From Gammaproteobacteria bacterium (GTDB taxonomy: Bacteria > Pseudomonadota > Gammaproteobacteria > GCA-001735895): 35,895 bases of DNA. Both the position numbers and the translations under genes were made by a program. The notes beneath the pieces were generated by a model. That model saw only the letters and a list, made by a program, of their open reading frames with translations, was not told where the DNA came from and searched no databases. The stretch lies in contig JAAEPH010000421.1 in NCBI GenBank assembly GCA_024232855.1, forward strand, positions 1-35,895. Reading direction: 5' to 3'. Below are positions 21,883-30,295 of the stretch, piece by piece. The number at the start of each line of letters is the position of its first letter. The first letter of the stretch is position 1.

Positions 21883-22057
21883 CCTAAAAACCTCAGTTGA
21901 ATCGTAGCGAGGGCGTCTACTGTGCTGAATATCAGGTATTTCTTTCGTTATTTTAGGCGATCGCGTAGTCACTCTACGTGTGAGCTTAAAATAATGAAAA
22001 AATGCATGAGATTCAGTGCAGTAGACGACCGCAGTAGATTCAACTGAGGATTTTAGG
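21883..22057. repeat. 175-bp palindromic MITE-like element, copy 3 (inverted)
   Basis: The reverse complement matches copy 1 with about 4 differences over 175 bp. The flanks (TTTTAA before, ATAAA after) do not show the TTCAA duplication seen at copy 2. It sits between the GAGGCGC repeats and the tRNA-Val promoter. From 22058 to 22178 I see no other feature. Confidence 0.85.
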
Positions 22058-22178: not shown

Positions 22179-22206
22179 TTGATTCCTTCAGTTTCTAAGG
22201 TAGAAT
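22179..22206 (+). promoter_or_regulatory. Likely sigma-70 promoter for the tRNA-Val locus
   Basis: TTGATT (22179-22184), a 16-bp spacer and TAGAAT (22201-22206), followed by a GC-rich discriminator AGCCGGCC of the kind found at stringently controlled tRNA promoters. It would drive the broken copy first and then the intact tRNA. Confidence 0.5.
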
Positions 22207-22225
22207 AGCCGGCCTGATTTTGTAT

Positions 22226-22281
22226 AGTCGCGTAGCTCAGTTGGTTAGAGCACCACCTTGACATGGTGGGGGTCGGTGGTT
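22226..22281 (+). pseudogene. Truncated tRNA-Val(GAC) copy
   Basis: Identical to the first 56 bases of the intact tRNA-Val at 22389, including acceptor 5' strand, D arm, GAC anticodon arm, variable loop and the first half of the T arm. It breaks off inside the T-loop (GGTGGTT), where the hairpin chain begins. The 3' acceptor strand and CCA are missing, so it cannot form a normal tRNA. Confidence 0.85.
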
Positions 22282-22284
22282 TGA

Positions 22285-22372
22285 CAAAATCGCCGGGAGC
22301 GATTTTGCGGCGCGCGCAGCGCGGCCCGCAGGGCCGAGGGCAGGATGCCCGAGTCAATCCACGAAGTGGATT
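22285..22372. repeat. Chain of five consecutive hairpins inside the broken tRNA-Val
   Basis: Perfect palindromes follow one another: CAAAATCGC-CGGGA-GCGATTTTG, CGCGC-GCA-GCGCG, GGCCC-GCA-GGGCC, GGGCA-GGA-TGCCC and AATCCAC-GAA-GTGGATT. The order and wording resemble the array at 29974-30097. The last one contains AATCCAC, which matches the tRNA T-arm 3' strand, so it may preserve a trace of the original tRNA. Confidence 0.7.
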
Positions 22373-22388
22373 CGTTTGAAAATTATAT

Positions 22389-22465
22389 AGTCGCGTAGCT
22401 CAGTTGGTTAGAGCACCACCTTGACATGGTGGGGGTCGGTGGTTCGAATCCACTCGCGACTACCA
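22389..22465 (+). tRNA. tRNA-Val(GAC)
   Basis: 77 nt. It folds as a full cloverleaf: acceptor AGTCGCG/CGCGACT, D stem GCTC/GAGC, anticodon stem CCACC/GGTGG with loop TTGACAT (anticodon GAC), T arm with TTCGAAT, discriminator A and encoded CCA. It decodes GUC and GUU. This is the intact member of a pair whose first copy is broken, and it lies 56 bp upstream of thrS. Confidence 0.97.
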
Positions 22466-22521
22466 ACATTTTACGCAATAGATCAAGTGGCCTTTGGTAG
22501 GGGTCACCACTGGAGAATACA

Positions 22522-24420
22522 ATGCCCCAGATTACCCTTCCTGACGGATCGCATCGTCAATTTGATCAAGCTGTTTCGATTATGGACATAGCCGGCGATA
22601 TCGGTCCTGGACTCGCCCGGGCGACGTTGGCCGGTAAGGTGGACGGTCAACTCGTCGATGCCACTTACCTGATCGAAACCGACGCCGATGTCGCGATTGT
22701 CACAAGTCGTGACGAGGAGGCGCTCGAGTTGCTGCGCCACGACGCCGCGCACGTGATGGCGCAGGCGGTGCAGGAGCTTTATCCCGGCACCCAGGTAACG
22801 ATCGGGCCCGCGATCGAAGAGGGATTCTACTACGATTTCGCGCGCGAGGAGCCCTTCACGCCCGAGGATCTGGTCGAAATCGAGAAGCGCATGCTCGAAA
22901 TCGTCAAACGCGATCTGCCGATCGAGCGCGAAGTGCTGGATCGTGAAACCGCGCGAAAAATTTTCACCGATCTCGGTGAGCACTACAAGGTCGAAATCAT
23001 CGATCAGAACATCCCCGAGGGCGATGAGATTTCGATCTACCGTCAGGGTGACTGGTTCGACATTTGCCGCGGTCCGCACCTACCGTCCACCGGCAAACTC
23101 GGCAACGGCTTCAAGGTAATGAAAGTGGCCGGCGCCTACTGGCGCGGCGATTCCAGAAACGAAATGCTGCAACGCATTTACGGCACTGCCTGGCCGGACA
23201 GGAAGCAGTTGAAAGCATACCTGCATCGTATCGAGGAGGCGGAAAAGCGCGATCACCGCAAACTCGGACGGCAACTCGAACTGTTTCTCCTGCACGAGGA
23301 GGCACCCGGCTCGGTGTTCTGGCATCCGAAGGGCTGGACCCTGTTCAACCTGTTGATCAACTACATGCGCAAGCGCCAGGATGAGGCGGGTTATGTCGAG
23401 GTCAATACCCCGGACGTAATGGACCGCAGCCTGTGGGAAACTTCGGGTCACTGGGAGAACTACCGCGAACACATGTTTTCGACGCAGACCGAAGACGAGC
23501 GCGTATTCGCGTTGAAACCGATGAACTGTCCGGGCTCGGTGCTGATGTTCGCCCAGGGCCTGAAAAGCTATCGCGATCTGCCACTACGCATGGCGGAACT
23601 TGGCAAGGTGCATCGTTACGAACCTTCGGGCGCGCTGCACGGCTTGTTGCGGGTGCGCCATTTTACCCAGGATGACGCCCACGTTTACTGCACCGAAGAG
23701 CAGATGGAGCAGGAGTGCATCGATGTCATCGCACTGGTGCTCGATATCTACAAGGATTTCGGCTTCGAGGATGTCGTCATCAAGTTTTCCGACCGACCGC
23801 AGAACCGTATCGGCTCGGATGAAATCTGGGACAGGCTTGAGGGTGCGCTGATCAACGCGCTCGACAGCATGAATCTCGACTATAAGTCGTTTCCCGGTGA
23901 AGGCGCCTTTTATGGTCCCAAGCTCGAGTTCGTGTTGCGCGATGCCATTGGCCGGGACTGGCAGTGCGGCACGCTGCAGGTTGATATGAACCTGCCGGAG
24001 CGCTTCGATATCTCCTACGTCGCCGAAGACGGCAACCGGTATCGGCCGGTCATGTTGCATCGCGCTTTGTTCGGCTCACTGGAGCGCTTTTTCGGAATTC
24101 TGCTGGAACATTACGAAGGCAAATTTCCGCTCTGGCTGGCGCCGGTTCAGGCCGTGGTGATGAATATTACCGATAAACAGGCGCCGTATGTCGAAAAAGT
24201 TGAAAAAATGCTTAAAAATCAGGGAATCAGGGCACAATCCGACTTGAGAAACGAAAAAGTCGGGTTTAAAATTCGCGAGCACACTTTGCAGCGTATTCCT
24301 TATATGCTCGTGGTCGGTGATCGCGAGGTCGAAGAGGAAAGTATCGCGGTGCGTAGCCTGGGTGGTGAAGACCTCGGTTCCATGGCGGTTGGGCAATTTG
24401 TGCAAATGGTGCGGCAGTGA
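22522..24420 (+). CDS. thrS: Threonyl-tRNA synthetase
   Basis: Charges tRNA-Thr. 632 residues: an N-terminal TGS domain, an editing domain beginning around [14 protein letters not shown], a class II catalytic core and a C-terminal anticodon domain. Likely zinc ligands are Cys336 (MNCPGS), His387 (TQDDAH) and His513 (LHRALFGS), each two positions beyond the E. coli residues. The ribosome site is TGGAG before ATG 22522. It heads the classic translation operon. E. coli ThrRS represses its own translation through a leader; I cannot confirm such a leader in the 56 bases here. Confidence 0.97.
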
Positions 24421-29801: not shown

Positions 29802-29878
29802 CGGGGCGTAGCGCAGCCTGGTAGCGTACCTGCCTGGGGGGCAGGTGGTCGTGAGTTCGAATCTCGCCGCCCCGACCA
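29802..29878 (+). tRNA. tRNA-Pro(GGG)
   Basis: 77 nt cloverleaf: acceptor CGGGGCG/CGCCCCG, D arm GCGCAGCCTGGTAGCG, anticodon stem CCTGC/GCAGG with loop CTGGGGG (anticodon GGG), T-loop TTCGAAT and encoded CCA. It reads CCC (and CCU). The 3' CCA runs straight into the terminator stem. tRNA-Pro after the ihfA-MerR pair is the usual gammaproteobacterial order. Confidence 0.97.
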
Positions 29879-29940
29879 ATTTAAAGAAATAAAAAAAGCC
29901 TCTTACCGAAAGTTTGAGGCTTTTTTTATTTCTTTAAATT
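29878..29940. terminator. Bidirectional terminator with a perfect 25-bp stem
   Basis: Arms 29878-29902 and 29916-29940 are exact reverse complements, joined by a 13-base loop. The inner core is AAAAAAAGCCTC/GAGGCTTTTTTT, so each strand has a GC stem followed by a T-run. The symmetry extends outward through AATTTAAAGAAAT. It ends the thrS-to-tRNA-Pro transcription block. Confidence 0.9.
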
Positions 29941-29973
29941 GGGCGGGAAGATGTGGACCGAATTAGAGGTTCA

Positions 29974-30097
29974 CAAATTGGCAGGGACTGCCGATTTGCA
30001 CAGCGCGTAGCGCTGCCCGCAGGCCGCTCTCGTGCATCCATGCACTACGCGGCACCTGGGCATCCTGCCCATTGGGTGCCGGCCATGGATGGCCGGC
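29974..30097. repeat. Chain of five hairpins
   Basis: In order: CAAAT-T-GGCAG-GGA-CTGCC-G-ATTTG (29974-29998), CAGCGC-GTA-GCGCTG (30001-30015), GTGCAT-CC-ATGCAC (30032-30045), GGGCA-TCC-TGCCC (30058-30070, inside an outer GGCACC/GGTGCC stem) and GCCGGCCAT-GG-ATGGCCGGC (30078-30097). The first two, the CCCGCAGG word and the fourth parallel the chain at 22285. No protein-coding frame is plausible. Confidence 0.7.
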
Positions 30098-30295
30098 ATG
30101 AAATCCTCTCGCCTGGGTAAAAATCCTCTCGATCCCGCCGGTCCGACCTATCGGGTCAAGCAAAGGGATGACAGTTGTTGTAGCAAGACCTGATTTTACT
30201 CTCCCAGTTTCCGTAATTGCCGAGCACGACTGCATGGACGCAGGAGGTAGAGCAATGCAGGAGCAATTGCCGAGGAATTCGGTGAGCGATGCGGG
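30098..30295. other. Non-coding region rich in palindromic words
   Basis: I see no gene. It contains GACC-TATCG-GGTC near 30145, CTGC-ATGGAC-GCAG near 30230 and GCAAT-GCAGGAGCA-ATTGC near 30254, in the same style as the preceding chain. The words GGTCCGAC and TATCGG recur from 3886-3900. AGCGATGCGGGCTA occurs both here (before the antiporter stop) and near 9381. Confidence 0.5.

Follow-up and report, generated by a model that had tools for sequence, protein, structure and literature searches.

Why should an intact tRNA gene be preceded by a broken copy of itself, and where do the hairpins at the break come from? In the window (the whole 35,895-nucleotide stretch of gammaproteobacterial DNA analyzed here), the tRNA-Val gene in front of thrS follows a partial copy that is interrupted in its T-loop by a chain of hairpins. 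The original prediction explained this arrangement by insertion of a hairpin-chain element into one of two tandem tRNA-Val genes.

Anatomy of the Split tRNA-Val Copy

The features of the locus are:

22179..22206, + strand: sigma-70-like promoter, TTGATT-16-TAGAAT, 5' of copy 1
22226..22284, + strand: partial tRNA-Val(GAC) copy (copy 1), tRNA nt 1-59, with the 5' acceptor strand, D-arm, anticodon arm, T-arm 5' strand and T-loop through GA
22285..22355, + strand: RtT-type module, a four-hairpin chain with GAGTC at its end; 89.8 bits to model R1, whose training set includes this copy
22285-22307, + strand: module hairpin 1, CAAAATCGC/GCGATTTTG
about 22311-22323, + strand: module hairpin 2
22323-22335, + strand: module hairpin 3, GGCCC GCA GGGCC
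22338-22350, + strand: module hairpin 4, GGGC AGGAT GCCC, with GAGTC next
22356..22362, + strand: AATCCAC, the T-arm 3' strand of the split copy, able to pair with GTGG of 22226-22284
22356..22372, + strand: cap hairpin AATCCAC-GAA-GTGGATT, an alternative to the T-arm, present also in relatives G021 and G045
22373..22388, + strand: short spacer 5' of the intact tRNA, its final ~6 nt similar to the 5' flank of copy 1
22389..22465, + strand: intact tRNA-Val(GAC) with CCA encoded (ARAGORN, Rfam)
22522..24420, + strand: thrS (threonyl-tRNA synthetase), identified by sequence and conserved position; it follows the tRNA in the genus relatives checked as well

As predicted, the first 56 bases of the tRNA are repeated exactly 163 bp upstream. 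The likeness continues through a single mismatch (C56 to T) and then GA, giving 59 nt in total, so that the break does lie in the T-loop, but after TTTGA and not at GGTGGTT. The whole direct repeat (22220-22284 and 22383-22447) measures 65 nt at 97% identity, with a start-to-start spacing of 163 bp. Five hairpins had been counted, the last containing AATCCAC; all are real, but four make up the chain and the fifth is its cap.

ARAGORN and Rfam call a tRNA at 22389-22465 alone within the duplicated locus. Against the tRNA model, copy 1 reaches 24.9 bits (model positions 8-63; cut-off 29 bits), and nothing besides tRNA attained an Rfam gathering threshold in the window. Judged from its sequence, copy 1 probably does not function as a tRNA, because it is without a 3' acceptor strand and the invariant C56 is gone in two of the three genomes with this arrangement. 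The two tRNA parts (22284 to 22389) are separated by 104 nt; the stretch from the chain to the intact tRNA showed neither promoter nor terminator, and the chain itself showed no terminator. The expectation that a likely promoter reads into the broken copy is supported by the site 5' of copy 1, and several relatives (L011, L013-L017) have a similar promoter-like sequence ahead of their single intact tRNA-Val.

Two neighboring elements deserve mention. The thrS leader contains a hairpin (22486-22511, AGTGGCC-TTTGGTAGG-GGTCACCACT) that is kept in relatives and carries GGT in a loop resembling the tRNA-Thr anticodon loop; it is possibly a threonyl-tRNA synthetase operator. Upstream of the tRNA, at about 21890-22057, lies a MITE-like element whose inverted ends are CCTCAGTTGAATC / GATTCAACTGAGG; a close counterpart of its sequence breaks up an RtT-type module in another part of the genome (L180, L182).

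The tRNA-Val–thrS Site in Relatives

Two layouts of the element were distinguished. In the usual one (3'-type), an intact tRNA is followed by the module and a copy of the tRNA 3' end, split at the T-loop. The mirror layout, seen in the window (5'-type), has the tRNA 5' part split by the module and placed upstream of the intact tRNA. The 5'-type recurs with the same junction in G021 (L009) and G045 (L186), which are separate assemblies with their own substitutions. It stands alone at tRNA-Val in the window genome (G000) and in G021, while in G045 elements of both types surround one intact tRNA-Val. The 3'-type is found in G003, G011, G015 and G023, with a remnant in G010, and a single tRNA-Val by thrS without any element in others (e.g., G004, G012, G016, G017, and G020).

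Comparison with relatives for two intact tandem tRNA-Val genes, which had been proposed as a check, revealed none in any relative examined. The idea that such a pair was ancestral is therefore rejected. What stands of the predicted event is a partial tRNA-Val copy with a hairpin-chain element in its T-loop; a target among two pre-existing intact genes is unsupported. Since the relatives have one intact tRNA-Val whether they carry no element, the 3'-type, the 5'-type or both, sequence comparison makes it most likely that the partial copy came with the insertion.

The 5'-type was present at tRNA-Val in 3 of the 18 genus genomes examined, three others ending at a contig edge just upstream. This patchiness indicates that the element is dispensable. 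On a ThrS tree that is partly supported, and with some upstream contig ends missing, the three 5'-type genomes fall in separate groups intermingled with element-free genomes. We read tree and site states only as patchy presence, reflecting either a shared origin with losses or repeated gain. Among these three genomes, copy 1 is 97-98% identical and the module 90-94%; for comparison, identity is 45-55% at the third positions of thrS and 51-60% for the flank upstream. Such conservation reflects one of three causes: selection, gene conversion with the intact tRNA, or recent transfer.

A Hairpin Module Related to RtT

E. coli K-12 tyrTV contains, three times, GGTTCGA-CTCGAGCG...ACCCGAAGGGCGAAGCGC..GCGCTGAGTAATCCTTCCCCCACCACCA, a plan (GGTTCGA-chain-GAGTAATCC...CCA) that is also that of the module family. 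The window copy has the split T-arm (GGTTCGA-chain-TAATCC) and the conserved hairpin chain, with 92% of cells paired when it is aligned with E. coli tyrT and 20 others, and it shares with RtT the trait of being transcribed in the tRNA direction. The module is homologous to RtT (Rfam RF00391), the tyrT/rttR repeat of E. coli, as the shared plan and the agreement of the Rfam model with our model R1 on the places found both show. Within the family, 12 of 24 pairs show changes on both sides, 60 alignment cells being changed on both sides versus 9 on one, and none of 500 shuffles reached the observed covariation score. The scarcity of G-U intermediates may be a weak hint of selection on DNA palindromes.

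The window copy itself gave no match to RF00391 at E<=5 and did not reach its 45-bit gathering cut-off. It also does not occupy the RtT position, downstream of an intact tRNA and with the tRNA 3' end to CCA; it lies upstream and holds only nt 1-59 and AATCCAC. Because it falls short of the Rfam score and also lacks the 3' end of the tRNA, we do not assign it to RtT: it is a related variant outside RtT proper. The 3'-type element behind tRNA-Val in G011, of the same genus, scores 33.6 bits with RF00391, below the same cut-off.

Model R1 was built from 22 copies, those of the window and E. coli among them, and RF00391 served as an independent check. Of 276 gammaproteobacterial genomes, 125 (~45%) contain the module according to R1, from 104 of 215 genera, and RF00391 had matches in 44 of the 276; in more distant relatives it exceeds its cut-off at places that R1 finds too, e.g., G170:C13 and G218:C128. 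The module is present in 29 of 31 genomes of the genus, with about nine strong matches in the window genome. An exact-match pattern scan of 84,980 species genomes, using a first-hairpin query without tRNA sequence, returned at least 120 stretches, nearly all from Gammaproteobacteria by record titles.

Some of the dispersed copies have features of their own. Copies in the window genome (L002-L005 and L007, on contigs C192, C287, C207, and C12) have long inverted flanks and no tRNA nearby, and the two sides of their cap hairpin change together (AACCCATAGC/GCTATGGGTT vs. AAGCCATAGC/GCTATGGCTT). In Methylobacter and relatives (L049, L057, L062, L126), copies apparently lie inside or at the ends of putative reading frames (GGCATGACAAATTCGCC).

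No paper was found in the open-access literature for the module's own sequences. As far as the accessible parts of the sources go, neither intrastrand-triplex repeats (PMC4666352) nor GTAG/CGTC REPs (PMC3733652) match it. Our impression is that rtT-type modules have apparently not been described in the open-access literature as a tRNA-loop family.

Association With tRNA Loops

A profile search of these stretches yielded at least 135 module copies. Among the matches listed, 66 of 135 lie within 600 bp of a tRNA, against a background tRNA proximity of about 2% in the same loci, and 64 of these 66 are on the tRNA strand, with 2 opposite (binomial p about 6e-17). For about half of the copies among the matches listed, no tRNA lies as close as 600 bp; the module thus has other homes besides tRNA loops.

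By explicit junction criteria, at least 31 copies among the matches listed are 3'-type and at least 11 are 5'-type; class-wide searches added five further 5'-type matches. Beyond the window there are about 18 5'-types (19 loci with it), on tRNAs for Val, Gln, Ser, Lys, Arg, and Pro. In these 19 loci, the exact tRNA match mostly ends at the T-loop GA or in the D-loop (for example L039, L063, L100, L120, and L153), with CAAA directly after; anticodon-loop junctions were not seen among them. G023 (L212) has one intact tRNA-Gln between 5'-type and 3'-type split copies. This locus and the tRNA-Val locus of G045 (L186) look as if the intact gene sat within an interrupted one.

Two further elements were noticed. 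At L173 (G000:C23), a module lies behind tRNA-Tyr, as in E. coli tyrT, and is followed by tRNA-Gly and tRNA-Thr. At 29802-30113 of the window, a 3'-type RtT-like element follows tRNA-Pro(GGG): a terminator-like hairpin, then GGGCGGGAAGA...GAGGTTCA-hairpin chain-GAAATCCTCTCGCC. Its match to R1 is weak (25.4 bits), and its T-stem is closer to the tRNA-Pro of relative G008 (L037) than to the local one.

Origin of the Element and Alternative Explanations

The feature is most probably a 5'-type relative of RtT, a hairpin chain in the T-loop of tRNA-Val that arrived with a duplication of the tRNA 5' part and left a complete tRNA downstream. The module together with a copy of one flank would have inserted at TTCGA^ATCC, an event that fits both the 5'- and the 3'-type, and the exact empty site would be TTCGAATCC. 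On the most likely reading, one flank was duplicated along with the hairpin insertion and the tRNA therefore stayed functional, the upstream copy being left as a 59-nt remnant ending in the chain. Because the promoter precedes copy 1, remnant, chain and tRNA probably form one transcript. Standard tRNA processing predicts that RNase P would cut at 22388/22389, freeing a leader RNA of ~170 nt. This leader would mirror rtT, the trailer released from tyrT. If the 59-nt direct repeats recombined, the element could be lost scarlessly and the exact empty site regained, and the patchiness of the element would then be accounted for.

When the entire precursor is folded, a misfolded tRNA is slightly favored (-100.3 kcal/mol, versus -98.4 kcal/mol with the cloverleaf enforced). 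We give this no weight, because the cloverleaf misses the minimum for the lone tRNA too (-28.6 vs. -29.1) and co-transcriptional local folding should favor the cloverleaf.

The chain could instead be a selected leader or attenuator that arose from duplication and acts on the tRNA-Val/thrS transcript as a decoy, as originally predicted, or as processing control. Conservation of copy 1 and module far above neutral sites, the same-strand bias of tRNA-near modules and, in the part of the source available, the expression of RtT RNAs 5' of tRNA-Asn and tRNA-Lys in Actinobacillus (PMC4986893) speak for such a role. We nevertheless regard it as unlikely, given the patchy distribution over separate groups of the ThrS tree, the chain's lack of a terminator and the loss of C56 from two of three copies. 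Less likely still is that a RAYT (Y1) transposase spread the hairpins as REP/BIME-like palindromes, for which a tRNA loop was merely a convenient landing site. The module does consist of small dispersed hairpin repeats with many copies per genome, and a similarity of rtT was noted in an enterobacterial BIME cluster (PMC2965389). Y1_Tnp is commoner in module genomes (96/125 vs. 83/151, p=2e-4, with no correction for kinship or the size of the genomes), and the window genome has 3 matches. However, 29 module-bearing genomes, some with 10-13 copies, have no Y1_Tnp match, which weakens RAYT as sole mobilizer: the transposase is associated with the module and not required. Reading the sequence beside the window hairpins revealed no GTAG or CGTC tag, such as REP palindromes of 20-40 nt carry, and tRNA duplications are not known to flank REPs.

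Integrases, too, leave traces in tRNA genes, T-loop sites included, restoring the gene and displacing a fragment (Islander, PMC4383910; PMC1762012). The T-loop GA junction and the restored tRNA would fit a leftover of a tyrosine-integrase island or phage, with the tRNA copies as attachment sites and the chain as residue after a deletion. This is very improbable, since a chain of 70-90 nt recurs with different tRNAs, in D-loops and at non-tRNA places, the module had no match in phage records, and only 104 nt lie between the tRNA parts in the window. In addition, the departure from the usual integrase pattern that was pointed out at the start is upheld: the window displaces the 5' part, integrases normally the 3' part. 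The draft state of the genome (546 contigs) and the tendency of repeats to misassemble could suggest a misjoin of two tRNA copies. The probability of this is negligible and we reject it, because the same junction in G021 and G045 excludes both chance and assembly accident.

Returning to the insertion with a duplicated flank, we tentatively extend it to the family, a step for which we claim somewhat less than an even chance. RtT-type modules might be non-autonomous mobile hairpins that enter tRNA T- and D-loops, nearly always oriented with the tRNA, each time carry along or provoke a duplicate of one tRNA side and keep an intact gene, as 5'-type, 3'-type, or sandwich. From the strand bias and the specificity for loops, the insertion target would seem to be recognized while folded as a single strand, either RNA or ssDNA.

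So far, rtT has chiefly been regarded as a side product of a single E. coli tRNA operon. Here it becomes one case of a module that ~45% of the gammaproteobacterial genomes sampled contain, that strongly prefers tRNA loops and that has a defined junction. The module is thus a concrete and testable system with respect to the enzyme that places hairpins in tRNA loops, the orientation bias and the role of the leader and trailer RNAs.

Comparison With Known Systems

Tyrosine-integrase islands of the Islander type (PMC4383910) resemble the window in tRNA-gene insertion, a restored gene and a displaced fragment. They differ in that the ~100 nt insert has no room for an integrase, and no integrase gene lies between the restored and displaced parts in the window; the 5' part is duplicated, and the module occurs at many unrelated sites. 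REP/BIME elements are likewise small dispersed hairpin repeats, whereas the module shows strong tRNA-loop association and strand bias and is present in genomes without Y1_Tnp.

The RtT-family sRNAs Arrc20 and Arrc21 of Actinobacillus lie 5' of tRNA-Asn and tRNA-Lys and were detected by RT-PCR, according to the available part of PMC4986893. Like the window element they lie ahead of a tRNA gene, and they are annotated as RtT; that part of the description mentions neither a partial tRNA copy nor a T-loop split. The same source, again as available in part and citing Bosl and Kersten (1991), describes rtT as freed from tyrT and modulating the stringent response.

The closest counterpart is RtT itself (the tyrT 178-bp repeats, or rttR, of E. 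coli). Both it and the window element split the T-arm after TTCGA by a hairpin chain that includes a CCCGAAGGGC-type hairpin and whose last hairpin runs into GAGTAATCC in RtT and GAGTCAATCC in the window. Both lie on the strand of the tRNA and duplicate part of it. In the window, the first E. coli hairpin is replaced by the CAAAATCGC/GCGATTTTG hairpin. RtT lies downstream with the tRNA 3' end, whereas the split copy of the window lies upstream with tRNA nt 1-59.
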